In this document: piece by piece, positions 818 through 28,579 of the stretch
Layout of the letters: each line of letters starts with the position of its first letter
How positions within the stretch are numbered: the first letter of the stretch is position 1
NCBI GenBank assembly: GCA_946902875.1
Contig: OX336345.1
Location: forward strand, 4,929,395-4,993,394
Origin: Nematopogon swammerdamellus
Lineage: Eukaryota; Arthropoda; Insecta; Lepidoptera; Adelidae
Length of the DNA: 64,000 nucleotides
Reading direction: 5' to 3'
Made by a program: the position numbers and the translations under genes
The notes under the pieces: model-generated
Told to the model about the DNA's origin: nothing
What the model saw: the letters and a program-made list of their open reading frames with translations, nothing else
The model's database searches: none

Positions 818-863
818 CCCAAGCAGCAAGGTCACGTTAAAATCACGTGATTTTAAAGTCATT
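818..863 (+). repeat. Left terminal inverted repeat of the giant element
   Basis: Starts CCCAAGCAGCAAGGTCACGT. It pairs with 18053-18098: the outer 20 bp match except one base, and about 37 of 46 match overall. The inner part includes the palindrome CACGTG. Confidence 0.8.
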
Positions 864-2120
864 TTCGCAGCAGTGACGACATCAGGACTAATAAGACGTC
901 ATTTTTAACGTGAGATACTGACTTGTGACGACATGTGGTCTAAAATACACGTCTAAAATCACGTTAACGACGACGTTATATTTACGAAATTATTTAACGT
1001 AAACAATGCCGTCAATACGACGTGAAAATGACGTTTAATTTCACGTTAAAAACACGTGTTGCAGTTACGTAAATAATGCCGTCAATACGACGTGAAAATG
1101 ACGTTTAATTTCACGTTAAAAACACGTGTTGCAGTTACGTAAACAATGCCGTCAATACGACGTGAAAATGACGTTTAATTTTACGTTAAAAACACGTGTT
1201 GCAGTTACGTAAACAATGCCGTCAATACGACGTGAAAATGACGTTTAATTTTACGTTAAAAACACGTGTTGAAATTACGTAAAAAATGCCGTCAATACGA
1301 CGTGAAAATGACGTTTAATTTTACGTTAAAAACACGTTTTGAAATTACGTAAAAAATGCCGTCAATACGACGTAAAAATGACGTTTAATTTCACGTTAAA
1401 AACACGTGTTGCAGTTACGTAAACAATGCCGTCAATACGACGTGAAAATGACGTTTAATTTTACGTTAAAAACACGTGTTGAAATTACGTAAAAAATGCC
1501 GTCAATACGACGTAAAAATGACGTTTAATTTCACGTTAAAAACACGTGCTGCAGTTACGTAAACAATGCCGTCAATACGACGTGAAAATGACGTTTAATT
1601 TTACGTTAAAAACACGTGTTGAAATTACGTAAAAAATGCCGTCAATACGACGTGAAAATGACGTTTAATTTCACGTTAAAAACACGTGTTGCAGTTACGT
1701 AAACAATGCCGTCAATACGACGTGAAAATGACGTTTAATTTTACGTTAAAAAAACGTGTTGAAATTACGTAAAAAATGCCGTCAATACGACGTAAAAATG
1801 ACGTTTAATTTCACGTTAAAAACACGTGCTGCAGTTACGTAAACAATGCCGTCAATACGACGTGAAAATGACGTTTAATTTTACGTTAAAAACACGTGTT
1901 GAAATTACGTAAAAAATGCCGTCAATACGACGTGAAAATGACGTTTAATTTCACGTTAAAAACACGTGTTGCAGTTACGTAAACAATGCCGTCAATGCAA
2001 CGTGAAAATGACGTATAATTTTTCGTTACAAACACGTGTTGCAATTACGTCAACATTGCCGTCAATACGACGTGAAAGTCACGTTTTTTTACGTTACCAC
2101 CACGTGTTACAATTACGTAA
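840..2120. repeat. Left subterminal satellite array (70-bp unit, ACGT-rich)
   Basis: From 840 to 1010 ACGT/ACGTC motifs are irregular. From 1011 a strict 70-bp unit repeats about 16 times (1011, 1081, 1151 ... 1991, 2061). Each unit has five ACGT cores spaced about 11-13 bp, and usually the perfect palindrome AACACGTGTT. Two unit variants differ at TCACGTT/TTACGTT and GCAGTTACGT/GAAATTACGT. They alternate from unit 6 to unit 14, and units 8-10 equal units 12-14, giving a 280-bp higher-order pattern. The last two units (1991 on) are decayed, so homogenisation was strongest inside the array. No reading frame is supported. Confidence 0.9.
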
Positions 2121-2518
2121 AAATAATGACATTCATGTATCGTAATAAATATCCGCGATCTGTGGATCTTACGCGCAGTTACGTTATACTAATCGGTGGT
2201 TAATATATCAATATAGTATAACCATACAAGATGTTTTTGGAACTGAACAACTTTTTATTTAATTAGATAATTTTTTCCTCTACAATTTTTAGTAAATACC
2301 TAACCTAAGTACCTAACCAGCATTCGTACATAACGATAGGTAATTAGGTACCAATGATATTTTAGGAAAGATAGGTTATATAAAAACTGCATCATAATCG
2401 GACCATCCGTTTGGGAGTTACATCGATGCCACAGATAGTAGGGTGACAGACAGACGGACAGACGTGGCGTCAAACTTATATAATACCTATATACAATATT
2501 TATTGTAGGCTATTATAT
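2121..2518. other. Unassigned AT-rich DNA with a short dispersed-repeat piece
   Basis: Mostly unassigned. Around 2385-2475 (ACCATCCGTTTGGGAGTTAC, then GACAGACGG repeats) is a fragment of the F repeat seen at 14805 and 27180. Confidence 0.5.
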
Positions 2519-3032
2519 AAGGTCTTTCAAAATTAGTTTAGAGTACGAAAAGGGGAGGGGGGGGGGGGGGGGGGGGGTTCTGTATCATATAGGGAGTAAA
2601 ACCTATATAATTTTTTTTGGACCTTGGGCTTTTTTTTATGTAAAATATTGTTTTATGTATTTAAATGAAAAAATAGGTGATTGATTTTTATAGCCTTAAT
2701 CGATTCAGTTTCATAACAGTTACAAAAAAGTCTTCATCACCATTATGATCTAACACGTGTAAGTTGGTAAAAAAAATCAAATTATTTCTATTCCATACTT
2801 AATAAAACTAAAATTGTGGTTTTTCACAATTTGTGAAAGAAAGAGATCTATGTGTATTGGAAGACTTTTTTGTTCCTGGCATGAAACTTAAACGATTACT
2901 AAAAATTTTTTTCTTACATTTTACATGTAAAAAATTTTATTTTTGTAAAAAAAAAATTCTTTGTTCTTCAAGTGATCTATTTCCGATACACAACCCCCCT
3001 TAGCGTACTCTGAACTAATTTTGAAAGACCTT
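2519..3032 (-). mobile_element. MITE family P, copy 1
   Basis: About 514 bp with terminal inverted repeats AAGGTCTTTCAAAATTAGTT at both ends, flanked by a 4-bp direct repeat ATAT (2515-2518, 3033-3036). Inside the left arm lies a run of over 20 G (about 2554-2577). The interior is AT-rich and non-coding. It is inverted relative to the copies at 8029 and 12389. All three lie inside the giant element. Confidence 0.85.
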
Positions 3033-3302
3033 ATATACCAAAGACATATATACCTACTCTTTTCAGAAATAATATTATGAGTTGCTTCTAGGCTTCGTGA
3101 AAAGGATGGTACGGCCGTGTTGCTCGACTTGGCGGGGCACTGCCGTGCCCCCAGATATAGGTGGGTACCTAGATTTAATCTGCCATCATCATTTAACAAA
3201 CAGATTCTCTATCAACATAGGTATCATCATTTAACAAATCCTTCCAATTCGATGCATGCATGCATGCTCGAATCTTTGGCTCGAATACGCCATTCCTATC
3301 TA

Positions 3303-3538
3303 TACGTACACGTAATGTTCCGTCAAAACTTTAATGCTGCTCCACCTATCTAAGCAGTAAATAAATTTTAGGTCATAATACGTAGAACATAAGGTAGACT
3401 TTAATGTCGCTCGCAGCCTGGGTTCCCGCATATGTGCAGTGAAGCAATTATCTACCCTATGTCTACGACTGATGACCTTAAATTCGTTGTCCATGCAGGT
3501 AGGTGAGCGGCATTAATGTTAAGGGAACTGTACGTACC
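3303..3538. mobile_element. Short hairpin MITE
   Basis: The arms (3303-3345 and 3496-3538) are imperfect inverted repeats: GTTCCGTCAAAACTTTAATG against the reverse complement of CATTAATGTTAAGGGAACTG. The right half recurs at 63505-63600. Non-coding. Confidence 0.6.
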
Positions 3539-3565
3539 TACATAATACGCTATACACATGCATGG

Positions 3566-3692
3566 AGAGCGTTCCAACTAAAAGTTCTCTTCGCCGTTAT
3601 GTTGGCTCCACTGTCTACCTGTCAAAACAGCGTTGAGGGTTGCTATGTGTAAAGATTTACCCGTAATTATCAGTATCTCTTGTCTATCTACA
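3566..3692 (+). mobile_element. Hairpin MITE, left half only
   Basis: AAAGTTCTCTTCGCCGTTAT at the start, and the following ~110 bp, match the left half of the complete element at 40218-40448. The right arm is absent, and the 130-bp tandem repeat follows instead. Confidence 0.65.
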
Positions 3693-3769
3693 GTTAGACC
3701 AAATAAATATTTGAAGAAATGAATAATATGAATAATGTTTTTCACTAAAGTCAAAAAACATAGAAGGAA

Positions 3770-4480
3770 GGAGAAAAACATAAAATTTTTTTTTTCAAAT
3801 TTTCTTGAATGTAAATGTTCTTTTGCCTGTATCATATTTGTAGACGAAATATAAGACACTTTTATTCTTACACATTTATCCCTAAAGTCAATATTTCTGG
3901 AGAAAAAAAAAACAAAACTATTTTTTTCCAGTTTTTCGCGAATGTTAATGTTTCTTCGATAGAATCATATTTCTAAACAAAGCATAAAACACTTTTATTC
4001 TTATTCGTTTTACACTAAAGTCAATATTTCCGGCGAAAGAAAAAAAAAACTTAAGTTTTTCTAAATTTTCTCGAATGTTAAGGTTTTTTTGTCTGAATCA
4101 TATTTCTAGACAAAATATAAGATACTTTTATTCTCACACGTTTTTCAATAAAGTAAATATTTGTGAAACAGAAAAAAAACTTATTTTTTTCCAATTCGTA
4201 TCTTAATGGTATTTTCGCCGGAATCATATTTCTAGACAAAATATAAGACACTTTTATTCTTACACTTTTAAAAAAAAAACCAATAATTCCGGAGAAAAAA
4301 AAACATCAGCATTCGAGAAAATTTGGAAAAAATAAGATTTGTTTTTTTTTTCTCCAGAAATATTGACTTTAGTGAAAAACATGTAAGAATAAAAGTGTCT
4401 TATATTTCGTCTAGAAATATGATTCCGGCGAAAAAAAACAAACATTCAAGAAGATTTGGAAAAATATTTGCATTAAAAAA
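3770..4480. repeat. ~130-bp tandem repeat with terminal inverted copy
   Basis: CTTTTATTCT recurs at 3859, 3992, 4125 and 4251 (spacing 133, 133, 126), each embedded in a shared unit containing TCATATTTCTAGACAAAATA and a poly-A tract after TCCGGAGA. From about 4290 to 4480 one further copy lies in inverted orientation, so the array ends in a foldback. Non-coding; the A and T runs create short meaningless open frames. Confidence 0.75.
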
Positions 4481-5071
4481 AGAACCTTTCACTTGTATTT
4501 ATTATTTGTATAATTGCTCGGCCCTAACGAGCAATTGTCGCCAAAGTTTATCTAAGTTAAGTCACTTTCTCCAAGCAGAATATAATTTTATGAAAACAAA
4601 GTGCCAGTTGTGATTTGAGATTGGAGTTGTGATTGGATTTTGAAGTTCGAACTTTGGCAAAACTGCAGTCAGTTTTGAGAGAAAAAATTGGTTTGACGGT
4701 TGTTTGATTTCTCTTTGCGCTCTTTGCTCATAGATATAGGTTACAAATGGAAAACAATTTAGTAACAAGTTAACAACCACCAATCGTTACAAGAAAGGCA
4801 CGAAATACAATTATGACGATTAAATTTTTTGAAAAAAAAAAATCATCATAACATTTCAGAAGGCCGTTCTATTGTATATATAGATTAGACATACGTACAA
4901 AGTTCTCACGTACGACAAAATACTTGGAGTCTGAAAAAAAAGATACAACAAAAAAAGACACGTTTCAAAAAAGTTAAGTACGGGCAGCCGTTTCATTATA
5001 GTGCATGCAGGTACTGTAGTGGTTTTATTACAGATGCCACATAGTTAGTATACAGAGCAGCATCCACAGCT
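4481..5071. other. Unassigned AT-rich DNA
   Basis: I see no gene, no clear repeat boundary and no RNA gene in this stretch. Confidence 0.5.
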
Positions 5072-5700
5072 GGACATTATCACTCCAAAATGAATTTAAA
5101 GAATTATGGCAAGTGTCTGAAAGAGAAACTTTTGCCGAATTTGCTAAAAAAGCTATTGTGATGGATCGATCACAACACCCGAAGCAGTAATATGCCTATG
5201 TCAAATTCTGCAAGGATGCCATGCAAAAGTGGCTGACTGAAAATAGTATTCTCAAAGAGTTTGTATTACGTCGCATACAAACTCTTTGAGTATTCCATTC
5301 GATGAACGGTTCCGCAAAGTAGAGCTGTATGATTTGATCAAAAAGAATAAAGAGGGTTTCGTAATCGACGAGATTATATTCGAAGCCAGGGTTTCGAAAT
5401 ATTGCGTCTGCCACCATATAAACCGAGCTGAACGCAATCAAAAACATCTGGGGTATTATAAAAAACCAGATTACCTCGAAAAACATTGGACAAAACATGA
5501 AAGAAGTAAAAAAAATTTATCTGAGGGCTTAAACAGCATCGATAACAACGCCTGGTTTACAAGCACGTAGAAAAAATTGAAAAGGAATACATGATATGTT
5601 TTGATTACGACTGAGTTTGTGATTAATGTTAGGCGAATCAAGTGACAGCGATACCGAAGAGGTTGTAAGTGACAGTGACAGTTTATACGAAGATAAGCAT
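5072..5700 (+). pseudogene. Decayed Tc1/mariner-like DDE transposase, C-terminal part
   Basis: Several frames read through conserved-looking pieces. The first reads WTLSLQNEFKELWQVSE and continues past a stop near 5190. Another, around 5400, reads LRLPPY followed closely by IKNIWGIIKN, the pattern (LPPYxPxLNxIExxW) that holds the last catalytic acidic residue of IS630/Tc1/mariner transposases. Here the position expected to be Glu reads Lys. A downstream Ser/Asp-rich end (SDSDTEEV, ~5650) is also typical of these proteins. Frames shift at least twice, and a 40-bp palindrome interrupts the frame at 5251-5290. The N-terminal DNA-binding part is not recognisable. The gene is dead and nested in the giant element. 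The family call is from motif memory. Confidence 0.6.
5251..5290. repeat. 40-bp perfect palindrome
   Basis: Two 16-bp arms (CTCAAAGAGTTTGTAT and its exact reverse complement) surround 8 bp. It sits inside the decayed transposase frame. A related hairpin with the same AGAGTTTGTATTACG core is at 18526-18565. Confidence 0.85.
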
Positions 5701-5740
5701 TGTAATATTAATTAATTGCATTATTTCTTTTTTTTTTTTT

Positions 5741-6137
5741 ATGTAATCCGGTATGGGTGGCTGAGTCGGAGAGGCCAAGGCACATGCTCCGACCAGCCAA
5801 TATCACCTACGAGAAGGTAGGTGCCATACCGGAGACTTCCCTGGATTGCTGGCTATAGTGAACTAGAGGAGAACACAACCGAGGCTGCTAGATGCGGCCA
5901 TCTTACATCCAGTACGGTGGTGTCAACCCAGTCGGCTACAATTTGAGCCTACCACCTAGTAATGGCCAAGGGAAGGGACCTACAGTTTACACCGGTACTG
6001 AACGGCGAAGCAGCAGGTGTAGGTATGCACGTAAATTTTTCGTCAGAAAAAACTCATTGGTACACGCCGACCGGATTTGAACCTAGAACCTCTCGCATGA
6101 GAAACCGATGCCCAAACCACTCGGTCACCCGCCTCTT
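5741..6137 (-). mobile_element. SINE family C, full length
   Basis: Read on the minus strand: tRNA-like head (6061-6132), a linker, the central domain (CTAGGTGGTAGG ... ACCGTACTGG), the C tail (GATATTGGCTGGTCGGAGCA, then CCACCCATACCGGATTAC) and a poly-A tract (plus-strand poly-T 5727-5740). It resembles the plus-strand copy at 11083-11445. Confidence 0.85.
6061..6132 (-). other. tRNA-derived SINE head
   Basis: The minus strand shows an A-box-like GACCGAGTGG and a B-box-like GGTTCAAATCC about 40 bases apart, within a 72-base tRNA-sized unit. It belongs to the SINE at 5741-6137 and is not a functional tRNA gene. Confidence 0.7.
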
Positions 6138-6828
6138 AGCTTGTGCCAAAAGCTTTGTGACAGTGCAATACATTTGTTGAACATTTATCTTTATTGTTTT
6201 TATGCTAACCATACCCGCGCTCACCCATCGAAACAATGCGGGTGACTGTACCTCAAGGACGCGAGAGAAGTGTGAGCGGAGCACGGGGTAAATACAGTAC
6301 GGGAGGCGACTCATCAACCAATATCGCGGCAGCGTCGGCCGTCTTTCCCATCGCGCCTCATTCCCCCCGCCAAACAGACCCCAAAACTTACTACTGCGCA
6401 TTCCCCCACTACATTTGCCGAGCGCTCAAAACTCGTGCCGGCACCGTACCGCACCGCACCACGACCACACGGCACGTGAAGGACGCGAAGCCCCGCGGCA
6501 TTTTTTTCCTGTCTTGTGAGTGTACTTACTACCAGGTGCTGCCAGTTTTTAATATTACCAGCGATTACTACACGTGAGTGAGGCGATTTAACAGTGTGCT
6601 TCTTGATCGGTTGAAGAAATGTGTACCTCATAGGGAAAGAAGCTGGTGATGAAGATGACACCTAAAAATTCGTCCTCGTTCTGGCCTTTCACGAAAAATA
6701 CAGGAGTCTCTACAACAACAATAATCTCTTGATAACACATACTTCGCCAAGTGAAGCAAGATTGGGCTCTTCTTATAAAATTGTAACCGAAGTTCTTTGA
6801 AACTGGTGAGTAAAATACCTAGTTCTTT
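6138..6828. other. Unassigned stretch with a GC-richer core
   Basis: 6230-6520 is richer in G+C and CpG than its surroundings, with CACCGTACCGCACCGCACC-type short repeats. No convincing coding frame is seen. It could be an old promoter or 5' exon of a transposon gene, but nothing decides this. Confidence 0.3.
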
Positions 6829-6958
6829 AGTTACCTTACGGACGGTGGCCGTCGTGTGGAACAGAGGAGAAGAAAGCCAAGACAGTTATCTAGTGATGAC
6901 GATGAAGAGAGACAGCCACTTGTGAAGAGAATGAAAATACAGATTTTTCGAAATTCAG
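6829..6958 (+). other. Possible exon (weak)
   Basis: A ~130-bp open stretch lies between an acceptor-like TTCTTTAG (ending 6828) and a donor-like CAG/GTAGGT at 6958. It would encode an acidic then basic segment (QLSSDDDEERQPLVKRMK). It may be an upstream exon of one of the transposase genes nearby. No family is recognised and it could be chance. Confidence 0.25.
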
Positions 6959-7210
6959 GTAGGTATGTTCTATTTTACTAGGGCATAAGGGTGTGGCTTT
7001 ATACTGGGGAGCCGAGATCCCAAACTGCTGGTAAGCTTAATGTGTAGGTTGAGTTAAAAGACAAATTTTAGCGAAATAATTTTTCACCGGAAACGCCTAG
7101 TTTCGGAGAAAAAAAAAGTTATAAAGATTTTTTTTCACATCGCTCGCTTCGCTTGCCCCCTGCGCGAATTATGGTCATCGGGCAGCCGTATACTCGGTTA
7201 GGTGGTCTGT

Positions 7211-7360
7211 GGCGTCTCCTTCGCTGAGAATGTTTTTTTCGAAACATTACATAGAAACAACGAAACATTGGGGCGTGGCCATACTGGCCATACACTTTGT
7301 ATTTTGTGTACAACAAATGTTTTTGAGTAATGTTTCGAAAAAACATGCGCAGGAGACGCG
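7211..7360. mobile_element. Small foldback element
   Basis: Inverted arms GGCGTCTCCT ... AATGTTTTTTTCGAAACATT on the left and the matching complement ending AGGAGACGCG on the right, about 35 bp each, around a 75-bp centre. Non-coding. Confidence 0.65.
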
Positions 7361-7418
7361 GCTTAAGTGACTCTATGGACAGGGTGCTCCATAGCGAGCG
7401 AATGAGGTTGGCGGCATA

Positions 7419-7717
7419 TTTCCAAAGTCTAGTATGCGACTTGCTCTGATTGGTGAAGAGACGATTCTGGCTCCGCCTCCGGCACCCCGAGCGATCCTAC
7501 TGAACCGATATTCGTTTGGCCGCATATGTACTTTGGTCGCATATGTACTCTCGGCCATGGGTTCGTGTCCCTTTTGTCAATTTTTTTTTTATTTACTTTT
7601 TTTTAAAGCAATGTTAGTGTGTTAAAATTAGGTTTATAACCACTTAAGAAAACTTTATATTTCCCCGATAAGTTGAGAACGACCAATCAGAGCAACTCGC
7701 ATACTAGACTTTGGAAA
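7419..7717. mobile_element. 299-bp hairpin MITE inserted in a terminal repeat
   Basis: About 36-bp inverted arms, starting TTTCCAAAGTCTAGTATGCG, match almost perfectly. TA dinucleotides flank it (7417-7418, 7718-7719), as for Tc1/mariner-type elements. Removing it restores the left terminal repeat of the 7410-9829 transposon, so this MITE is the younger insertion. Confidence 0.8.
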
Positions 7718-8028
7718 TATCGCTCTATTAAAGGTGAAGAGAGCTACGCCACACTTATGACGAAATTGAGTTATCAACACCACCATACTCAGGTTGAAAT
7801 GGAGAACTTGGTGGTGAAGTTATAGCTACAAAATTGTAGAGGCTCTAGACTCAGGTGTGAATGGAGGTCAGTTAAAGCACAGTACAGCAATTATGTTGGT
7901 GAATAGATGTTAAACTGCTTAGATTTGTTCACCACTATTTAGCGTCGCATGATACAGTCATAAAATCTTTGGTGGTGAACAGAGGTTACCGTATATAATC
8001 TTGCAGACAAGGTAGCCTCTAACTATAT

Positions 8029-8567
8029 AAGGTCTTTCAAAATTAGTTAATAGTACGCAGAGGGAGGGCGGGGGGGGGGGGGGGGGGGGTTCTGTATCGG
8101 AAATAGATCACTTTTGAAGAACAAAGAATTTTTTTTTTACAAAAAAAATATTTTTTGATGTAAAATGTAAAAAAAATATTTTCTTAATCGTTTCAGTTTC
8201 ATGCCAGGAACAAAAAATTCTTTCAACACATAGATCTCTTTCTTTCAGAAATTGTGAAAAACCACAATTTTAGTTTTGTTAGTATGGAATAGAAAGAATT
8301 TGATTTTTTTTACCAACTTACACGTGTTACATCATAATAGTAATGAAGACTTTTTTGTTACTGTTATGAAACTGAATCGATTAAGCTATAAAACTCAACC
8401 ACCTATTGTTTTATTTAAATACATAAAAAAAATATGTTACATAAAAAAAAAGCCCAAGGTCCAAAATTTTTTATATAGGTTTTACTCTCTATATGATACA
8501 GACCCCCCCCCCCCCCCCCCCCCCCCCCCCGCCTTAGCGTACTATTAACTAATTTTGAAAGAACTTT
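8029..8567 (+). mobile_element. MITE family P, copy 2
   Basis: Same termini and interior as copy 1, opposite orientation, with ATAT duplications at 8025-8028 and 8568-8571. It has a G run of about 22 near the left end and a C run of nearly 30 near the right end, which pair in the inverted repeats. It sits directly upstream of the transposase remnant. Confidence 0.85.
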
Positions 8568-8573
8568 ATATGT

Positions 8574-9302
8574 GGCATGGAGCAAATGGGACAAAAGGTT
8601 CTTCTGAAGTCGCTACTTGCTTATAGAAATTACTCTCAGAACTGGACCGGCAGTGATTGAGGTAACATTTTACTCTGACACAACATCCGGACCAAAATCG
8701 CAATTCTATAGTTTATGCAATGTTTTTGCGGGCTGTTCGAACCTTAACATTACAAACAATTAACCGAAAGTTCATGGAATCTGGACACTCCGATATGGAG
8801 TGTGACAGTGTTCATTCCACAATAGAACGTCGTGCGAAAAAAATAAGTGTATTTGTTCCGGAAGGGTGGTATACTGTTGTTAGAACTGCTAAGACCGCCG
8901 TACATAGTGAAAGAAATGCATTACAAGGAGTTTCTTGATTTCAAGTCCTATAGTCAGAAGCTAATTACAAATAAAACATATAAACTGGATGATGGGGGAA
9001 ATATGAAGTGGCTTGAAGCAAAGTGGCTCCAATACCGGAAAGAGAACAGTTTGTGTATTTACTATAAAACGCAACTGAGCCAACCAGAATTTAAAACACT
9101 TTCTATACGACGATCTACTCGAAAAGATAATGTACCAGTTGAAGTAAGTGATCTATAAAATGACCAACTACGGATTGATAAAAAAAACACAAAGACCTCC
9201 AAACACTCTGCACGACAGGAACTATTCCATCAACATATCATGAATTTTACATGAAAACTTTAAAGTCTTCAAACGAAGATGAACCTGAGCCGGAAGAATA
9301 AG
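8574..9302 (+). pseudogene. DDE-type transposase-like gene, C-terminal remnant
   Basis: Protein pieces in order: WHGANGTKGSSEVATCL, stop, KLLSEL; then VIEVTFYSDTTSG; then VYAMFLRAVRTL, GHSDMECDSVHSTIER, VPEGWYTVVRTAK; then YKEFLDFKSY and a long C-terminal stretch ending EDEPEPEE and a stop at 9302. The order YSDT..G, then GHxxxExDxxHSxIE, matches a large repeat-encoded insect protein family that I recognise by pattern as DDE-transposase-like. I cannot give its superfamily name with confidence. An in-frame stop (~8625) and frame changes near 8660, 8890 and 9157 break it. The N-terminal two thirds are absent. The terminal repeats around it indicate it once mobilised this element. Confidence 0.6.
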
Positions 9303-9829
9303 ATTGATTCGTTCCGTTAGATTAGTTTTTTTACTCTTTATCCCGTGTTTTTCCAAATGTCTTTTATTACTATTGATTAAAATTTTAGCAATAACAGTAC
9401 TTTGATTTAATAAACATCACCTTAATTTGTCAATCAATGATAACTCTTTCCACCAAATATATTAATCCAAATGAATACAACAAACATAATAGTGGTGAAC
9501 AGATAAAGTACTTAGAGATCCATTCACTTCTAAAATTTCTGTATTATCGTAATTTTTTTTCAGTTGTAGTGAAAAGAGCTATATGAAATATTCTCAAATA
9601 ACTGTAAAACTACTAAATATTTATCCTTAAATTAAAAACCATCCTTTAGAAGACATTAATGGCTTACTATCCTGAAAATTTGATGATAATGTAATTAAAA
9701 ATGGAGGAGATATGACAAACACAAAAGGAAAAATGTGACACTTAAACAGTTTAAATGCTATTATCCAAATCTCGAAAGTAGGCTTGTGTGGCGTAGCTCT
9801 CTTCACCTCTAATAGAGCGATATGCCGCC

Positions 9830-10240
9830 CGGCGCGGCAGAGCGGGGCGGCGCGGCGGGACACGCATCCAGAATTAAAGGTAAATATTTTTTCTTTTATT
9901 GGAGGTATTCTCGTTTTGCACTATGGCAATGTGACTACGGGCTCGGGCTGGCGGCGGCGTGGCGGCGGCGCTGGCTGACGCCATCTTGATAATTAATTGC
10001 CTGCGAAGAGATTTTAAGCGTGTCATAACGTTGTGCTGTGCATGTGCAATGCTGTGATGCAGTGTGGTGTGTTTACCAAAGAGTTTGGATAGCCCCCGCT
10101 CCCTGCGTCGCTGCGAGAGCGGCCGCGCCGCGCCCCGGCGCGAGAGCGGCCGGCGCGGCGGATTACAATGTCGGTGTCGTTTACGGTACGGAATTCGGTA
10201 CGGACCCCTTCGCAAGTCTCCTGAAAGCTGATTTGACTAT
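9830..10240. other. GC/CpG-rich stretch
   Basis: GC-rich with GGCGCGGCGG-type runs at 9830-9865, GGCGGCGGCG at 9950-9970 and GAGAGCGGCCGCGCC at 10115-10160. GCCATCTTG at ~9981 resembles a YY1-type initiator motif. This could be an old promoter or CpG island. No coding region or transcript signal is identified. Confidence 0.35.
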
Positions 10241-11060
10241 TTATGTATTGTGACGATTCAGTGTCTAGTGTAGTTTGAATTGCACACTACGGAAATTCTA
10301 TAAATTAACCCTAACCTAACAAGCACCCCATGTCGGTTTTGTATACATTTCTATGCAAAATCAATGTTTTGATGTTTTAAAAAAAATTAAAGTTTTATTT
10401 TTGTATGAAACATTTATTTTGTATGGAAAATCTGTTCCTATATTATTTGTTTTCTCGGAAACTAACGTCTCCGGCAAACAATTATTTCAATTAAATTCGT
10501 CTTTTAACTCAGCCTACCTACGCATTAAGCACAAGTAGGTATATTATATTATCATGGTTGGTGTTCAGGAAGTTGACTTACACCTGAGCGCAGCTTGTAA
10601 CTTTATGACAATGAATTGGCCGTGCAAATAATACGTAGTAATAATTTATTGTATTTATTTTCAGTGTGAGTACTTGAGTGCGTTCGCTGGCCTGGCCATT
10701 CGATTACAGGAACTGCCATCTAATAATGAGACACAAACTTGCTAATAAGCTGGCAGCTACATAAGTTACAGCTATAAAGGAAAACGGACTCTCGAAAAAC
10801 TCCACCTTAACACGGTTATAACATGTAAGTAAAATTACTATAGATTTTACCTAATTTTGAACATAGCGCAAGTTACTGCGCAGTATTCGAATTTTAGCCC
10901 CATTTAGGTCAAACAGGACAGGAAGGGGTGTCCACTTAATTAGAGTCAACCTTGTAAGAGCGGCATTTCTAAATTATTACATTAAATTGCACATTCAATT
11001 TGTTAACACCGACCTGAAAACTTAAAGTATTGTAGGTACGAGTTTTGGTACAAGCTGTAA
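10241..11060. other. Unassigned AT-rich DNA
   Basis: No gene or named repeat seen. AACCCTAACCTAAC at ~10304-10318 recalls telomere-like TTAGG repeats on the other strand but is too short to mean much. Confidence 0.45.
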
Positions 11061-11082
11061 GCCACCCGCCGCTTAATCGAGC

Positions 11083-11445
11083 AGCGGGTGGCCGAATGGT
11101 TTGGGCATCGGCTTCTCATGCGAGAGGCCCGAGGTTCGAATCCGGTCGGCGTGTACTAATGAGTTTTTCTGACGGTCACCGTTCGGATCCGGCGTAAAAC
11201 TGTAGGTCCCTTCCCTTACTAGGTGGTAGGCTCAAATTGTAGCCGACTGGGTTGGTACCACCGTACTGGATGTAAGATGGCTGCATAGCAGCCTCGGTTG
11301 TTTTCTCCAGCATAGCCAGTAATCCAGGGAAGTCTTCGGTATGGCACCCACCTTCTCGGAGGTGATATTGACTGGTCGGAGCTGCTTTGGCTTCTCTTGG
11401 CCTCTCCGACTCAGCCACCCATACCGGATTACTTAAAAAAAAAAT
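11083..11445 (+). mobile_element. SINE family C, full length
   Basis: tRNA-like head 11083-11153 (A box TGGCCGAATGG, B box GGTTCGAATCC), linker, AAACTGTAGGTCCCTTCCCT, central domain TACTAGGTGGTAGG, the C tail ending CCATACCGGATTAC at ~11431, then poly-A. A GCCACCCGCC / GGCGGGTGGC-type foldback (11061-11092) includes the first bases of the head. Confidence 0.85.
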
Positions 11446-12275
11446 TGTATTTTTTATTATTGGTATTTCTTTATTTTCACGCTTTTTGTTACATTTACAT
11501 TAATTTTATATAATTATAAAATAAAATACCTATACAAAATTAATACAAACAGACAAAAACAAAAAACGGTATTCTCGCCGGCGGCGGGAGGCGGAACTCC
11601 AAGCACGCCGGCGGGTGCAGGCCGTGGCTACGGAGCTCTCCGAGACGACGCGAGGCAAGCTACGAGCGATAGGTGGTGGTACTAGACACGTAGGCCACCA
11701 CCACCCCCATCTCGGTGAGCTCCGTATCCACCGGCTGCGGGGCGACGACACGCCGCCGCCGTTGCGCACCGTACCGCCACGCCGGTAGCGGGGGCTGTAG
11801 TCAGAGCACGGAGCCCCGATAGCCCCAAGCAGGCCGGTTGATGTGGCGGACATCGTCGTCTCGTCTTAGGTCTTGTGGCGGGAGCGCGATGTTGTTCGGC
11901 GAACCTTGGTGGTGGGTGTGCGCTGTCGTGTAAGAAGTGGCAGGTGAGCGAGTCACAGGGACACGTCAACGTCGTCGTCGGTGTAAGCGAGGATGGCGGC
12001 GTAATCGTGCGGGGCGGCGGCGCGCTGCTGGCGCGGCAGACTCCACGCAAGCTGCGGTGCGCCCTCACCGCGCCCTCCTCTGGCCCGGGGCGGGGACGCC
12101 GGTCGTGTCCCTGTCTTCTGCCGTGCTATCTTTGACAAGTCGTCACCATATTCCGGGAGTGCCGAGCGGCGGCGCTGATGGTGGTCGCATGGTGTTGGTC
12201 GCATGGTGTTGCACACCATGCGAGGTGCTGCGCCGGTGGTGGTGGGGCCGCGCATACACGCGAACTCGGCTTCTT
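11446..12275 (-). other. GC-rich dispersed repeat with an mRNA-like 3' end
   Basis: On the minus strand, GC-rich sequence (12275 to ~11560) passes into AT-rich DNA with AATAAAG (~11470) and a poly-A-like tract, as at a polyadenylated 3' end. A segment with the same core (CACGGCCTGCACCCGCCGG on the minus strand) recurs at 23225-23365. Overlapping open frames here are Arg/Pro-rich and typical of GC-rich shadow frames. It may be the 3' part of a retroelement or a retrocopy; no protein family is recognised. Confidence 0.35.
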
Positions 12276-12388
12276 TGTCCTCAGAACTCGGTTTTAATTT
12301 TTTTTTTCATTAGGAGAAAAAAATTTAGCGAGTTGTCACTTTGACAACTTCTTCTTTTTTTTTTTTTTTTTTTATTGGTATTATTGTT

Positions 12389-12877
12389 AAGGTCTTTAAA
12401 AATTAGTGAATAGTACGCTAAGGAGTGGTTCTGTATCGGAAATAGATCATTTTTGAAGAACAAATATTTTTTTTTTACAAAAAAAAATTTTTTAAATGTA
12501 AAATGTAAAAAAAATAATTCTTTATCGTTTCAGTTTCATGCCAGGAACAAAAAAGTCTTCCAACACATACATCTCTTTCTTTTAGAAATTGTGAAAAACC
12601 ACAATTTTAGTTTTATTAGTATGGAATAGAAATAATTTGATTTGTTTTACCAACTTACACGTGTTATATCATAATGGTAATGAAGACTTTTTTGTTACTG
12701 TTATGAAACTGAATCGATTAGGCTATAAAAATCAACCACCTATTTTTTATTTAAATACATAAAACAATATTTTACATAAAAAAAAGCCCAAGGTCCAAAA
12801 ATATTTATATAGGTTTTACTCCCTATATGATACAAAACCCCCCCTTAGCGTACTATTAACTAATTTTGAAAGACCTT
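12389..12877 (+). mobile_element. MITE family P, copy 3
   Basis: Same orientation as copy 2. The termini are AAGGTCTTTAAAAATTAGTG and its complement, slightly diverged. The G/C run is reduced to CCCCCCCC and the target duplication is no longer clear, suggesting an older copy. Confidence 0.8.
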
Positions 12878-13394
12878 ATTTAATCTTACAAGTGTAACAG
12901 TATTGCAAATAATAATTAAACATGCTTTTTTCTAGGTGCTACCAGGTCAGGCGCACTCCGCACTTTAGGTATGAAGCTACAAGTACATCGGCGGGCCCGG
13001 CTTGACAAGCCAATTCAATGAAACGTGCCGAGTCAGAAGAGAGAGTTACTCGTTAGAAAGAGAAGCGTGTTGTAGGTGAATATAATTTTAGGCAAGCAGC
13101 GTTGTGCGAGCTGAATTGCACTTTATTGCGTTGTTGCAAGAGTAGCTATTTATTTATGTGTCTTTGTAGAGTGATCCTTCTGTACATTAGTTTAGTACTA
13201 TTAATATATTCTGTGGTGTTACAAAAAAATGTTCAAGACCATAGTGGACAAACCTAATGAGGATAGCATAAAAACCTAGCATGCACCCCAGAGAGCAGAA
13301 AAAAATTAGATATAATTTGGCGTGAGTAAAATACCTATGCGCTGAGCAAGTTTGTGCTGATAGAACATAGTGATATGTAAAAAAGGTAAATTAC
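12878..13394. other. Unassigned DNA
   Basis: Nothing recognisable beyond AT-rich sequence. Confidence 0.45.
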
Positions 13395-13845
13395 ACATTA
13401 CAAAAACCCCCGACCCCTTAAAAAGTCAAAAATAATGTTCGGAGTTGGGGGACCGCTAAGTAAAATATCTGTGCAGCTCTGACTTTTATATTTTCTTTAT
13501 TTAGCGGTCCACTCCTTTAAGAAACTTAACGGACATTATTTTTGACATTTTCAGGGGTTGGGTTTTTTAAATTAAACTTGTATGTCAAACTTAAAAAAAA
13601 AATTTTTAACAACCGCATCCAAGTTGGTTCATCCTTGAGATGTAATATTTTGACTACTTCATAATTACTTGTTTTGTAATTGTTTACACCTAATAAACAT
13701 CCCGGTTAAACCAGCTTTCTAATAAAAAAAAAACCGGATCCAAATCGGCCAATCTGTAATGTTGGGAGCTACAATTCCACAGCAGACACAGTTACACACG
13801 TTAAACTTATAACACCCCTCCTTTTTCGTCGGGGATTAAAAATGT
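13395..13845 (-). repeat. F repeat with internal hairpin
   Basis: Hairpin 13398-13575 (CCCCCGACCCCTTAAAAAGT against AATGTCAAAAATAATGTCCG-type complement), then a tail with AGCTTTCTAATAAAAAAAAA and AACACCCCTCCTTTTTCGTC. The same unit in the other orientation is at 14805-15262; another minus copy is at 26870-27330. It is a common dispersed element and non-coding. Confidence 0.7.
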
Positions 13846-14159
13846 ATATTTTAAGTAAACATCAAATCTATAGAAGGGTTGAAAGACAAACATACATCTA
13901 GGACTTGAAAAAAATATTATTGGAATTTCTACCAATACTTCAAAATATCGGCTTATCAGAAATAAAATTAACTTTTGTCATTTAACCCTGTTTATTTTTT
14001 TTTAAGTGAAAACTTCTTTAGCGGCGCTGGGCACTTTTTGTATGGGGGGAAAAATGTATAACTCGCGACACCGTCGCGGTGTCGGGTCAGCGTCATTTTT
14101 AAAATGAAACCTTAAGTCATTGCATTAAGAGTTAAGTTAGAGTGGCACAGGATCTGCCG
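13846..14159. other. Unassigned DNA
   Basis: No feature seen. GACACCGTCGCGGTGTC near 14065-14085 is a short palindrome. Confidence 0.4.
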
Positions 14160-14370
14160 GCACGCCCAGAGTGCAACTGTTGAGTAGGGTTCGGTAACAC
14201 GTTTATGTCTGTCCATTCTACTAAGTTCTGCAAAATGAATGAAGGGTTCCGTGACAAATGCATGTCTGTCCGTTCTACTAAATTTTAAAATTTTCAACCA
14301 AGGTCCTCCGACGGTTATTTTATAATAAGTAGGGTTCCGTAACAAATGCATGTCTGTCCGTTCTACAAAA
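14160..14370. repeat. Three imperfect direct repeats
   Basis: AGGGTTCCGTAACAAATGCA followed by TGTCTGTCCGTTCTAC occurs at about 14185, 14246 and 14334, separated by unequal spacers. It may derive from the D repeat, which also pairs GGTTCCGTA with TGTCTGTCCG. Confidence 0.6.
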
Positions 14371-14589
14371 TTTAACATAATTTTTTTTTATTAAAATTTT
14401 TTTTTTATTTTTTTTTTCATTAATTTATTTTTTTTTTCATTAATTTATTTTTTATTTTTTTTAAACCTTTATAAATAAACTTAAAACTTAAACTTTTTTT
14501 TTAAGCAATGTTACGGTGTTGTTTTCACTTCTGCCCGCACTCCCGGAGTGCACCTGAGGCTTTTTTTTAAACCAACTCGCATAGTGCAG
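14371..14589. other. Low-complexity T/A-rich tract
   Basis: Runs of T and ATTTATTTTT to ~14465, then unassigned sequence. Confidence 0.5.
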
Positions 14590-14765
14590 TTCGTACCTAC
14601 GAATACCTCATACCTGCGAATAGCACTTTCCCGCCTGGTAGATCTATTCGCAGGAAATCAAATAAGACACTCCCAGTTCTTATTTAATAATCTCTGTTTG
14701 GCAAACCTACGAGTTTTTAGTTAATAATTTATGTTTGGCGTACCTGCGAATAGCCCCGCCCTCCT
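14590..14765 (+). repeat. G repeat
   Basis: TACCTGCGAATAGCAC, then TATTCGCAGGAAATCAAATA and ACACTCCCAGTTCTTA. The whole block recurs in opposite orientation at 39860-40025. It contains several short CCTACGAATA / CCTGCGAATA units. Confidence 0.65.
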
Positions 14766-14804
14766 GATGGGTTACCTCCTAACATTCAGTTTTGGCCCAT
14801 TTTT

Positions 14805-15262
14805 AACTCCCGACGAAAAAAAGGGGTGTTATATTTAAGTTTAACGTCTGTGTGTATGGGTGTGTCTGTCTGTGGCATCGTAGCTTCCAAACGGATGGAC
14901 CGATTTGGATGCGGTTTTTTTATTGGAAAGCTGGTTTAATCGGGATGGTTGTTAGCTAGGTTTGTAGTCAAATAATAAAGTCATTAAGTAATAAAAAAAA
15001 TAATTATCTTAAAAAGTGGACCAATTTGCATGCGGTTTTTTAAAAAAAAAGCTTGAATTAAAAGTTAATTACAAATGAAAAAAAACCCCCGACCCTTATA
15101 AAGTGAAAAATAATTTCCGTTTACTTAAAGGAGTCGGGGGACAACTAAGTAAATAAAATATAAAAACTCAGAGCTTGCCGGGAATTTACTTAGCGGGCCA
15201 CCTACTCCTTTAAGTAAGTAAACGGAAATTATTTTTGACTTTTTAAGGGTCGGGGGTTTTTA
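14805..15262 (+). repeat. F repeat with internal hairpin
   Basis: Starts TAACTCCCGACGAAAAAAAG, includes TCTGTCTGTGGCATCGTAGC and GGACCGATTTGGATGCGG, and ends in a long hairpin (15085-15262, outer arms AAAAACCCCCGACCC and GGGTCGGGGGTTTTT). Confidence 0.75.
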
Positions 15263-15341
15263 GCTGACATAGTTAGGTTGAAAGGATTCTGTATTTGTAA
15301 TTGTGAATATTTTGTGGTAAATCGAAACCTGACCCACTTCA

Positions 15342-16360
15342 GAGTTACCTAGAAGACTTCATAAAAGAATTGAAAAACATTTACTACTAAGAGGGTTATC
15401 TAATAATGGGGTAAGCATTGCTGTATCTGTGCATTCTTATGTATATGACATGCCAGCTCGATCATGTCTGAAATGTGTCAAGTCGCACAATACATATTCT
15501 AGTTGTGATAAGTGCACCTGCTATGGAAACTATGTTAATAATCTCGTTGTTCTGGATGACCTTAATTGTTCTTAAGAATTGATTAATCATTCATATTATA
15601 AATTGGACTATCGAAAGATAATGGAAATCAATGAAAGATTGGAGTATGAGGTACGTAAATTCGTTCCTGTAGAATTTAATTGTAAAGCCGCGAAGTGTCC
15701 TTGAACTAGATCATTGGAAAATAACTACTGTATGAATACCTAAGTTGTTTAGATTTAGTTCTTAGCCTTTATTAATTGCCCTTCACAACTGCAAAATAAT
15801 GTACCCACATCTTGCGTTATATACGCTTTCTTTTTACTTTCTTTTATATTTTTAGTTTATATGCATTATAAATATTAAAATATTTAGTTAAAATACTTAT
15901 ATACCTACATACATATGTGAAAATGTATATTATGTAAAATGCACTACTATAAGTACTATACAAAAATTATGTGAGCCTAGTTATGTAAAACCTAGTTTAT
16001 GAATAAACATTTTCATTTTCATTCATTCATAACTGGACTTTTAATGTTACTCTTGTACACAGGCCCTGTAGTATTGTATGGAATATTGAAGTGATGTTTT
16101 TGAACATTTCTTATTATTGCACTGTGCTATAATTATACACATAGTAACAAACCAATTGTGTCTCAATTATTCAGATTATGTTAAATAATTACTTAGGGAG
16201 TTTGTCAAAGACTGTAGATGTATGGTAAACAACAACTGTGCATTCACTGATTCATCTTACAGATGATGTTGAGAAATTTGGTATATTAGATAAAATCTGC
16301 CTTTAGATTTGAAAATTCTTTGGGAACACTAAAAAAATAATTTGCTAAAAATATTATTAT
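15342..16360 (+). pseudogene. Decayed large transposase-like gene (Cys-knuckle family)
   Basis: Frames read, in order: RRLHKRIEKHLLLRGL; then DMPARSCLKCVKSHNTYSSC and DKCTCYG (15451-15530), stop at ~15572; then NERLEYEVRKFVPVEF and, after a frameshift, KPRSVLELDHWKITTV (15630-15710); then, near 16215-16300, VHSLIHLTDDVEKFG followed by FGNTKK. This order (DxPARxxLKxxxxHxxYxxCxxC, KPRSLxELDxWK, VHNLxHLxDDV) matches a large repeat-encoded insect transposase-like family I recognise by pattern; CACTA/Tnp2 relatives have a comparable Cys-knuckle, but I am unsure of kinship. Multiple stops and frame changes make it a pseudogene. It lies on the plus strand about 1 kb inside the right subterminal array, where the autonomous gene of the giant element could have been. 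Confidence 0.6.
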
Positions 16361-17054
16361 GTTCTGTGGTTGAATAGTTCATCTGAAGAATTTTTTGAAA
16401 ATCTATGTCAATCAACAGTTTTAGGTATGGTTTTGGTAAGTGAAATATCTCCCAATTTGACAATGATTCCTATGAATAATGTTATTGATATAAAATGTAT
16501 CATGCTTCCATTTTTTAGTAAACATGTATATTATGTATAACTTTTTAATATCAATACTAATTATACAAAATTATGAACCAAAAATTTCCAGGATGTTAAT
16601 AAAAAGAAAATTTTGCGATTTTTAGTTTTTGTTTGTCATGATATGTGTTATGTGTGTAATACGAATTTGTGAAAAACTATTACTTGGTGCCGCATGAAGA
16701 CTTTGTAATGAACACGTTTCGCCCGCTGCGACGTGAGCTTCACCAGGACGCGTGATTCATCCCTAAACAAACGATTGTCGCTAAGACCAGTTTTCATGCC
16801 ACACTGACAGGATGGAACCGTGCTTTACAAATTTAATGTTGTAATAAAATTCTCCTATAACAATATGTACTAAACTTTATTTTCTCCTTCCAGCTATTTC
16901 ACCACCTGCGTTGCATCAGCAGTCACTGTCCGTGAATGTTTCTCCTCAATATTCAAAGCCAATAAACATTATACTATATGTCAATTCATTTATTTAATTG
17001 AGAGTTAATGTTCATGGACCTTATTCTGATGAGACGTGTAAAACAATTTAATTT
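16361..17054. other. Unassigned AT-rich DNA
   Basis: 16361-16560 may still be the decayed end of the transposase gene. A GC-richer patch (16715-16810) has no recognised function. Confidence 0.4.
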
Positions 17055-17294
17055 TGACTTAGGCACAGGGTGTCCCGAGCATGATGCATGAAACTTCAGG
17101 AGGTTATTCAGGAGGTCAAAAGAAACTTTCTCTTGCATTATTTTGTCTCTGAAAATTCTCATACTTACGTAGGGGGAAGACAGAGAATTGTTTTGCGAGA
17201 CATAAAATAGAAGAGAGAAAATATGTTTCTTTGATCTCCTGAATTACCTTCTGAAGTTTCATGTATCATGCTCAGGACATTCTGTGCCTACGTC
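17055..17294. mobile_element. 240-bp hairpin MITE
   Basis: Left arm TGACTTAGGCACAGGGTGTC ... CATGAAACTTCAGGAGGTTA; the right arm is its imperfect reverse complement ending CTGTGCCTACGTCA. Arms are about 75 bp and non-coding. It sits between the decayed transposase and the right satellite array. Confidence 0.75.
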
Positions 17295-17296
17295 AA

Positions 17297-18080
17297 GTTG
17301 ACGTCTTATAAAGACGTTAAAATAACGTAAATAAACACGTTAAAATAACGTAAATAAACACGTTAAATGACGTCATATAAAGACGTTAAAATAACGTAAA
17401 TAAACCCCCTTAAATGACGTCATATAAAGACGTTAAAATAACGTAAATAAACCCCCTTAAATGACGTCATAATTTTCGTCAAATTGGTCGTCATACTCAC
17501 GTCATGGTGGACGTCTTCTTTGACGTCATATAATGACGTTAAAATAATTCAAATAAACACGTTAAATTACGTCATAAATGGCGTCATAATTTTCGTCAAA
17601 TTGGTCGTCATACTCACGTCACGGTGGACGTCCCCTTTTACGTCATATAATGACGTTAAATTACGTGAATAATGACGTTAAGTGACGTTATAAATACGTC
17701 GTAAATGCCGTCGAAATTTGTGACATCCGCACGTAAAAAGGACGTTTATAATGACGAATAAAACACGTCTTCTTTACGTTAAACGACGTTATAAATACGT
17801 CGTAAATGCCGTCGAAATTTGTGACATCCGCACGTAAAAAGGACGTTTATAATGACGAATAAAACACGTCTTCTTTACGTTAAACGACGTTATAAATACG
17901 TCGTAAATGCCGTCGAAATTTGTGACATCCGCACGTAAAAAGGACGTTTATAATGACGAATAAAACACGTCTTCTTTACGTTAAACGACGTTATAAATAC
18001 GTCGTAAATGCCGTCGAAATTTGTGACATCCGCACGTAAAAAGGACGTTTATAATGACCAATAAAACACGTCTTTTTTAC
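17297..18080. repeat. Right subterminal satellite arrays (ACGT-rich)
   Basis: First half (17297-17640): irregular repeats of AAAGACGTTAAAATAACGTA and a longer unit with TTTTCGTCAAATTGGTCGTC (17474, 17591). Second half: a 101-bp unit marked by GTCGAAATTT at 17710, 17811, 17912 and 18013, nearly identical between copies. Like the left array, it is dominated by ACGT/GACGT cores and shares AATGCCGTC with it, but the unit lengths differ (101 against 70). Confidence 0.85.
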
Positions 18081-18098
18081 GTGACCTTGTTGCTTGGG
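18053..18098 (-). repeat. Right terminal inverted repeat of the giant element
   Basis: Ends ACGTGACCTTGTTGCTTGGG, the inverted match of 818-837 with one mismatch. The bordering AA (18099-18100) duplicates 816-817. Confidence 0.8.
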
Positions 18099-18250
18099 AA
18101 GGTAAGAAGGGAAGGGACCTACAGTTTAACGTGGAATCCGAACCACGGTCAGCCTCCAACGGTCGAGCGGTCACCCATCCAATCACTGACCGCGCTCAGC
18201 GTTGCTTAATAACAGTTGACTAACCAACCGTGCCACTGAGCTACCGAGGC
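18099..18250 (-). mobile_element. SINE family B, head half of the split copy
   Basis: On the minus strand: A box TAGCTCAGTGG (18236-18246), 5S-like segment (18169-18208, GAGCGCGGTCAGTGATTGGA then TGGGTGACCG), B box GGTTCGGATTCC (18133-18144), then AAACTGTAGGTCCCTTCCCT, ending at the element junction. It completes the copy whose tail is at 583-817. Confidence 0.85.
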
Positions 18251-18260
18251 TGACGAATTT

Positions 18261-18345
18261 TCTTATCCCTTAGTCGACTTTTACGACATGCGACGGGGAG
18301 AGATGCAGTGGGGCTATTCTTTTTAAGTACCGACCCCACACGGTA
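18261..18345 (-). repeat. A-module fragment upstream of the SINE head
   Basis: On the minus strand CACTGCATCTCTCCCCGTC and GACTAAGGGATAAG precede the SINE head directly. The same module arrangement (without the tRNA/5S head) is at 34025 and 35330. Confidence 0.7.
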
Positions 18346-18989
18346 CAAAATAAACGGAATAAAACGTCGGTTGAAATTAATATTGTACTTTTTTCTGAAC
18401 AATGTTTTTGGAACAATAAAATATTCTATGTCTATTACTAAATAGTATATCTATGACAAAGATTCTGAAATAAAATTAAAAGGTAAGTTTATTACTTATT
18501 ATATTTTTTTTAGTAAGTTAATCTCAGAGTTTGTATTACGAGCGCAGCGACGTAATACAAACTCTTTGGTTAATCTAGTGTAAAATTAATTTGAATTTTA
18601 TGATAATGAACGATCAATAGTTTCATTGAAAGGTAAGTTGGTAATCTATATTATATAAATAAATTAATTATTATACGTACATGCGTAACAATATACGTAG
18701 CTAGGGGTCATGCCAGTGAATATTTTATGGGGACCCTGTGTTTAATCAGTAATAAATAATGTCACTACACACTCACACTAACCTGATAAAGTAGCGTTAT
18801 GTTCAGCCGACACGCCACCTCAAATATTTTACACAGTACATAAATCAAATTAAATACCACCGTGGAATTTGAGTGTGCTGTTTTGAGCTTTTATCGTGCA
18901 AGGTGACGACATGCAGTGATAAATAACACGTGTTTTAATGCTTGTTACATGCAAACGTTATTGTAAGAAAAAATTTTTTTTCAAAATCC
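18346..18989. other. Unassigned AT-rich DNA with one hairpin
   Basis: The perfect hairpin 18526-18565 (15-bp arms AGAGTTTGTATTACG, 10-bp loop) is related to the palindrome at 5251. Nothing else is recognised. Confidence 0.5.
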
Positions 18990-28080: not shown

Positions 28081-28187
28081 TTTATATGTTTGTAGGAAAA
28101 GATTTTTATATGTATGTTAGTACCATGCACATTCATAAATGCAAAGGTAAACGGTTCGAAAATTTAGAGATAATAATATTTCTTTAT

Positions 28188-28568
28188 GAAAACTGACACG
28201 GTTGGCTACATCACCTACAACATCCGTGATGTCAGCCCATAACACCGGGTGACCTAGGTACCATATCAGTGCTTCCCTTCACTTCATGTCGGCTACACTG
28301 AACTGGACGGAAAACACGAACTATTTACATAGCCGTTTCGACCGACATTTCGCTCAGTGCGGTGGTACAAACCCGGGCGGGGTAAACCCTACCACCTAGT
28401 AAGGTAAGAAGGGAAGGGACCTGTAGGTCCCTTCCCTTCCGTTTAACGTGGAATCCGAACCACGGTCAGCCTCTAACGGTCGAGCGATCACCCATCCAAG
28501 TACTGACCGCGCTCAGCGTTCCTTAACAACAGTCGACCGACCGACCGCACCACTAAGCTACCGCGGCT
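28188..28568 (-). mobile_element. SINE family B, full length
   Basis: Complete minus-strand copy with poly-T-side tail, central domain, B box, 5S-like segment (28485-28525) and A box (~28550-28562). It shows the uninterrupted CTAGTAAGGTAAGAAG sequence that is split by the giant element elsewhere. A 15-bp inverted duplication (28408-28439, GAAGGGAAGGGACCT arms) replaces three consensus bases. Confidence 0.85.
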
Positions 28569-28579
28569 TACAAAATCCG

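Follow-up and report, generated by a model that had tools for sequence, protein, structure and literature searches.

We analysed a stretch of 64,000 nucleotides from the lepidopteran Nematopogon swammerdamellus (assembly GCA_946902875.1, contig OX336345.1, positions 4,929,395 to 4,993,394 of the forward strand), hereafter the window, in which positions 818–18098 are one transposon inserted into a short interspersed nuclear element (SINE). This element, which we call the giant, begins with the terminal inverted repeat CCCAAGCAGCAAGGTCACGT (818–837, plus strand) and finishes with CCCAAGCAACAAGGTCACGT, read inwards on the minus strand (18079–18098). As an initial annotation of the window had noted, these ends are inverted copies of each other. 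Over 20 bp they are identical at 19 bases, and a third copy was not found in the window with up to five substitutions allowed. Subterminal arrays rich in ACGT, delimited by tandem-repeat analysis, comprise 16 units of 70 bp on the left (997–2121) and units of 47, 117 and 101 bp on the right (17308–18082). Near the right end, tblastn and motif alignment locate a broken tnp2-type (Transposase_21-like) transposase on the plus strand (15307–16342), with the blocks YDMPARSCLKCVKSH..SCDKC, LLYTGPVVLY and HSLIHLTDDVEKFG in shifted frames with stops.

The insertion site can be reconstructed from SINE relatives elsewhere in the window. The minus-strand SINE is split into a 3' part (592–817) and a 5' part (18099–18257), and a target-site duplication, AA, borders the element on both sides (816–817 and 18099–18100), as judged from the flank and SINE alignments and from the comparison of paired ends given below. 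Both flanks (from 592 or 594 to 817, and 18099–18257) align to an uninterrupted SINE in the same orientation outside the element, a paralogous empty site at 28179–28574 on the minus strand, and likewise to 51879–51654 and 39477–39201; on these intact copies they overlap by exactly two bases, AA. When the flanks are joined with one AA removed, they run without a gap at the breakpoint against 28303–28517, 51842–51654, 39408–39210 and 568–451, and five weaker SINE alignments (74–88%) also span the breakpoint, in some cases with substitutions or gaps close by. Uninterrupted relatives thus confirm what the annotation had read from the letters, that the halves come from one minus-strand SINE and that AA was duplicated. 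SINE-like repeats are densely clustered around the insertion (1–600 and 18258–18346), and an inverted second SINE at 375–568 adjoins the split one.

The giant is present in at least 16 complete copies in the host assembly (699 Mb, 39 contigs), within which all copies were compared. Its left 193 bp has 21 genome matches. Seventeen, the window's among them, are full-length at 98% identity or more and another is full-length at 92%; of the other three, one is partial and two show 84% identity over part of the length. Among the 20 left-end loci fetched besides the window, 17 begin exactly at the terminal inverted repeat, one is an old relic with two substitutions in it and two lack it, so that 18 left ends, the window's included, share the same start base. 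A whole-genome search for the end with up to three mismatches returned 128 matches, against 25 for a reversed control; 100 of the 128 were examined, and the other 28 all carry three mismatches. Exact 20-base ends starting with CCC number 36, half of them in the left form and half in the right form (18 each). A right partner exists for 16 of the 18 left ends at distances of 14.8–50.9 kb, exact in 15 cases and with one mismatch in the copy C9b. The unpaired left ends are C17, where the contig stops before a right end, and C24, where no right end (up to three substitutions) was found within the 22 kb read and the shared interior stops after about 1.57 kb; both were excluded from the pair count. 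Among the matches listed, five right ends have no left partner (three on C21, C9:23748593 and C23:2225499). On C21, exact right-form ends at 15650093 (+) and 16005834 (-) point towards each other across 356 kb, and another right end, at 15662186, lies between them; these are most likely separate damaged copies.

An identical 2-bp duplication flanks all 16 pairs (AT in five, TA in three, TT and GT in two each, and CA, GA, AG and AA), and the third base matches in just one of the 16. By our own arithmetic, which assumes equal base use, chance would yield 16 such matches with a probability of about (1/16)^16. By coordinate subtraction, 14 of the pairs span 14,840–20,760 bp, and C11 and C9b span 29,460 and 50,942 bp. 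C11 resembles C18b, with its last 1,549 bp identical, plus about 12 kb inserted; the blocks on either side of the insert share 8 bp when placed on C18b, and the extra length is therefore a later nested insertion. This insert (about C11:8926850-8938769), whose listed frames are all 205 amino acids or shorter, has boundaries that suggest a second large element with 8-bp duplications. The excess length of C9b, a copy read at its ends only, is likely to be a nested insertion as well.

Comparison of the copies along their length points to recent movement. The window element, C34, C15, C21a, C21b, C18a, C18b, C11 and C20 are colinear with C1 along most of their length; the exceptions are hits of one nested repeat and register shifts in the arrays, while C20 aligns more weakly and with gaps and C24 over its first 1.57 kb only. 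C1 and C15 (16,412 bp each) differ by one substitution across 16,413 aligned columns, and C34 (16,416 bp) differs by two substitutions from C1 and by one from C15, plus two 2-bp gaps. Flanks of 100 bp are unrelated among copies, the exceptions being an inverted match of 62 bp that links two left flanks and a pair of 15-bp matches among the right flanks; in two single copies the left and right flanks resemble each other. Since the flanks of C1, C15 and C34 are unrelated, these are separate insertions and not a duplicated chromosome segment, and their near-identity on three different contigs is, as read from the alignments, a sign of recent movement. Gaps apart, interior substitutions relative to the window element amount to 0.50% in C18b, 0.49% in C11, 0.83% in C18a, 1.09% in C21b, 1.74% in C21a, 2.3% in C1, C15 and C34, and 4.69% in C20. 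The last 4.4 kb of C20 is 99.5% like C1 and the remainder mostly 88–96%, a mosaic indicating that copies have also exchanged sequence or share a layered ancestry.

The giant itself carries only a broken transposase gene. The remnant is colinear with tnp2 proteins (best linked tblastn E 7e-19), with its blocks in the order NVDGLP..FWPI, GKSKPDPLQSYLEDFIKE, YDMPARSCLKCVKSHN..SCDKC, LLYTGPVVLY and HSLIHLTDDVEKFG. The first-aspartate region NVDGLP is recognised in C1 and is unmatched in the window; CLKCVKSHN..SCDKC and HSLIHL are present, and the last E was not identified. In C1 the frame shifts within about 25 bases, stops occur, a stretch of about 500 bp interrupts the remnant and the conserved block around PLDYMHLICLGVMKRLL was not matched. 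A genome protein search with the 80-amino-acid core of the remnant gave 33 matches, 20 close and 13 distant. The close ones (71–100% identity) have open frames of 33–86 amino acids and include at least one in each of the 16 paired copies; the distant ones (36–42% identity) have frames of 360–732 amino acids. Because the gene is broken in every family match listed, we infer that another factor moves the element. The alignment of copies that the annotation had recommended yields one start base at 18 left ends, duplications of 2 bp at all 16 pairs and, in the copies read, a shared interior; the gene is broken in all 16 paired copies.

The annotation had also described long ACGT-rich arrays following each end; both arrays are present, the right one reaching almost to the end of the element and the left one beginning about 180 bp inside it. 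The density of ACGT per kb is 66 in one end region and 61 in the other, versus 2.3 in the interior, and CpG observed/expected is 3.1 in the end regions versus 1.05 in the interior. The left array ranges from 10 to 21 units among the 18 copies, and the right carries four 101-bp units in all ten copies counted. CpGs recur about every 11.7 bp in the 70-bp unit and every 11.2 bp in the 101-bp unit; a plain-shuffle control, being unfair to tandem arrays, was replaced by random CpG placement within a tiled unit, which matched the observed periodicity in 12 of 5000 trials for the left array and 67 of 5000 for the right. Distinct words common to the two arrays favour the same strand (29 versus 12 on the opposite strand for 8-mers, 19 versus 6 for 9-mers), where three interior control pieces gave 8-mer counts of 14/6, 7/6 and 7/7, one of them leaning the same way with fewer words. 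The best alignment between array stretches scores 88 on the same strand versus 62 on the opposite strand, and 200 shuffles reach at most 50. Taken together, the shared words and the alignment make the arrays look directly oriented despite the inverted ends. The TNPA protein of the plant Spm/En system is described as recognising subterminal repeats (PMC2613891), and by analogy the arrays of the giant probably serve as multiple binding sites.

We are confident, on this evidence, that the giant is a non-autonomous cut-and-paste DNA transposon whose tnp2 remnant, colinear but broken, lies near its right end. An ancestral autonomous TRC element would have lost its transposase, gathered nested repeats and grown. 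A transposase supplied in trans, either by a helper that this assembly did not reveal or by a related TRC element, would recognise the short ends and the ACGT-rich arrays, excise the whole unit and reinsert it with a 2-bp stagger. Some results weigh against this account. None of the 13 loci with a long tnp2 frame has an end of the giant with up to two mismatches nearby, and the same check at three mismatches covers the matches listed (100 of all 128 end matches). No Pfam family rose above its cut-off in the scanned pieces and frames of the window element, and the remnant gave no Pfam hit, so classification rests on the colinear motif matches. The copies, moreover, were compared as assembled sequence, from one assembly alone.

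A separate, coding-intact TRC family is present in the same genome. At one of the distant tnp2 matches (C11:5816800-5822800), the frame is open across the 633 amino acids of the piece and reaches 732 amino acids in the genome search, a length found in 10 of the 13 distant matches. Its Pfam similarities, PF02992 (E 0.0017) and DUF1258 (E 8e-4), both fall below cut-off, and 918 database proteins match it, the best 120 of these including proteins of moths, butterflies, spiders, a planthopper and other animals. The 1,297 bp downstream of the frame define the family (C11:5816800-5821105 and ten further places) and recur at 100% identity, rounded, at nine places, at 97% at one and at 99% over part at another; the nine identical places indicate that the family is young. 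After the frame comes an array of 91 bp repeated 8.6 times and then an end, ..TGCTACTAGGG, which falls at the same base in all four copies read, with unrelated sequence beyond. The family therefore resembles the giant in the order of its parts, in which a tnp2 transposase is followed by a subterminal tandem array and this by a CCC end, and differs in its intact long frame, its array motif GGCCCAA and its end CCCTAGTAGCA. This layout implies a common plan, which the giant follows with other array letters. An 11.5-bp spacing was also sought in the array of the coding-intact family and is unsupported there (the best period, 10.1, has a power of 5.9, whereas shuffles reach up to 8.1).

Mobilisation of the giant across families by this coding-intact family is the strongest competing explanation, although we regard it as unlikely. 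The 732-amino-acid frames and the youth of the family speak for it, and by our own count the first 11 bases of its end agree with the giant's CCCAAGCAGCA at nine positions. On the other hand, its array motif is GGCCCAA/TTGGC where the giant has ACGT, and its transposase is only 42% identical to the giant's remnant core. It is considerably more improbable that the giant is autonomous, with a transposase assembled from short exons or an unrecognised protein in its interior. Many conserved motifs are still recognisable, the frames were read unspliced, and a 162-amino-acid open frame of unknown kind is common to the three young copies. Yet C1, among the youngest, carries the lesions described above, and no stop-to-stop frame longer than 175 amino acids is listed in C1, C15 or C34, although frames cut at the boundaries of the pieces (near 2.0 and 12.0 kb) might have escaped.

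That each array marks a short independent element, the two merely flanking ordinary host DNA, has next to no probability. The right and left ends without a listed partner (five and two, respectively) would fit such an arrangement, as would a relic on C6 (C6:4970684-4973484, positions 536–1200). This old sequence, about 0.67 kb long and bearing a left end in the GCAAC form, has left-type and right-type array pieces that nearly abut, and it suggests short ancestors or deletion forms. The pairing of 16 of the 18 left ends, with duplications matched across every pair, shows that the arrays are not two short elements. The interior is common to the eight copies with both ends in the fetched pieces (C20 being weaker and gapped), and three copies are almost identical across 16.4 kb at unrelated sites, in keeping with the annotation's view of a single element. 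Neither of the findings that the annotation had named as fatal to its reading, arrays that stand alone as short elements and SINE halves from different copies, was borne out. A Polinton/Maverick-like or other virus-related giant element, suggested by the size range only, can be practically dismissed, since Polintons make 6-bp duplications where the giant has 2-bp ones and a six-frame Pfam scan of 2150–17311 revealed no polymerase, capsid or integrase family.

Returning to the non-autonomous transposon moved in trans, the arrays may have a more particular part in it. By analogy with bound subterminal repeats, we tentatively entertain the possibility, without regarding it as probable, that the ACGT arrays form a cis platform that lets a trans-supplied transposase move, within an animal genome, unusually large gene-dead cargo of 16–20 kb and perhaps as much as 51 kb, with the ends and arrays as the sole functional parts and the spacing of about 11.5 bp between CpGs reflecting stacked binding on one helix face. 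If so, the giant would be a natural large-cargo non-autonomous transposon. The efficiency of DNA transposition is reported to drop markedly once the cargo exceeds about 6 kb (PMC6431247). As a 16.4-kb unit that is gene-dead and moved recently, the giant is a natural case in which to study what makes the movement of large cargo possible, and its defined ends and arrays can be used to look for the missing helper. The giant also illustrates how satellite-like arrays are spread to many sites aboard a transposon.

The remaining content of the element consists of repeats and faint coding traces. Self-comparison identifies three copies (2514–3037, 8024–8571 and 12388–12884) of a nested, roughly 0.5-kb repeat whose inverted ends are of type AAGGTCTTTCAAAATTAGTT, and a nested SINE-like repeat at 5731–6132 with an inverted second copy at 11084–11444. 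On the plus strand, the stretch 8666–9155 has a weak DUF7869 match in its first open frame (8666–8935; E 0.0093, below the family cut-off) and is possibly a second dead gene or a nested element; a literature search found no paper on DUF7869. Weak hits from the six-frame scan, in which stops were treated as residues, were taken as chance. Outside the element, the window contains a GTGCC pentamer array of about 56 copies (55354–55637) and a 37-bp array of about nine copies (57058–57385).

The phage collection contained no match to 818–2150, and of 29 exact 17-base matches to the end on viral contigs none continues with GTCACGT and each has at most one ACGT in the 300 bases counted from its first base, so they were set aside as unrelated. 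No description of a lepidopteran or giant CACTA/TRC element was met among the listed titles and abstract openings of the open-licence literature; CACTA miniature inverted-repeat transposable elements of two Helicoverpa moths are treated in PMC9033116.

The giant is very probably a non-autonomous member of the animal TRC/CACTA (CMC, tnp2-transposase) type. It has terminal inverted repeats starting with CCC, a 2-bp duplication (at all 16 pairs and, for the window, against paralogous empty sites) and a tnp2 transposase as a broken remnant, and the frames of 33–86 amino acids at the 20 close matches set it apart from autonomous members. The annotation's suspicion of a relative of the CMC (CACTA/Mirage/Chapaev) group was therefore well placed, and can be narrowed to animal TRC. 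A plant-type CACTA (En/Spm) element was considered and rejected, as the ends are CCC, not CACTA, and a third duplicated base matches in only one pair. Duplications of 2 bp also occur in the Mirage group. In the account of the wider CMC group and its motifs in PMC12730594, duplications are 2–5 bp and ends mostly CA..TG, from which the CCC..GGG ends of the giant depart.

Ends in CCC together with 2-bp duplications are known from animal TRC/CACTA elements (PMC1636069, PMC4298943). PMC1636069 describes SmTRC1 of Schistosoma mansoni and elements of Tribolium (CCCTAGTAGCACCG..., about 5.2 kb) and Aedes (CCCAGTCAAC, 9.2 kb), and gives 2-bp direct repeats for both insect elements and for 7 of the 14 copies of SmTRC1. 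As presented there, they share with the giant the CCC core of the ends, the 2-bp repeats and the Transposase_21 domain, along with a tandem-repeat region in SmTRC1; by our own count, the Aedes end is identical to the giant's CCCAAGCAAC at eight of ten bases. The first 11 bases of the Tribolium end equal CCCTAGTAGCA, the end of the coding-intact family. These elements measure about 4.7–9.2 kb and include a coding region (PMC1636069), in contrast to the 14.8–20.8 kb of the giant in 14 of 16 pairs; the giant is further set apart from the TRC elements described there by its broken transposase and by the large, ACGT-rich arrays near each end. Spongebob (EnSpm-4N1_HM) of Hydra, with short relatives in silkworm and others, is similar in its CCC ends (CCCAGCCAACATTGAC), its 2-bp duplication and a transposase with stops or frameshifts; it is 5.8 kb long, its insect relatives are below 0.5 kb, and ACGT arrays go unmentioned in its description as excerpted (PMC4298943). 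The CACTA element Tgmt* of soybean (20.5 kb) is comparable in size, short terminal inverted repeats and asymmetric subterminal repeats, and differs in its CACTA ends, 3-bp duplication and large expressed gene (PMC2613891). The statement in the initial annotation, which knew of no transposon type that combines such size, ends and arrays, accordingly needs correcting, since CCC ends with 2-bp duplications occur in described TRC elements (PMC1636069, PMC4298943) and soybean has a CACTA element of 20.5 kb that bears subterminal repeats (PMC2613891). What is unusual in the giant is its size, its recent spread without a working gene and its ACGT-rich arrays, directly oriented and with a CpG spacing of about 11.5 bp.

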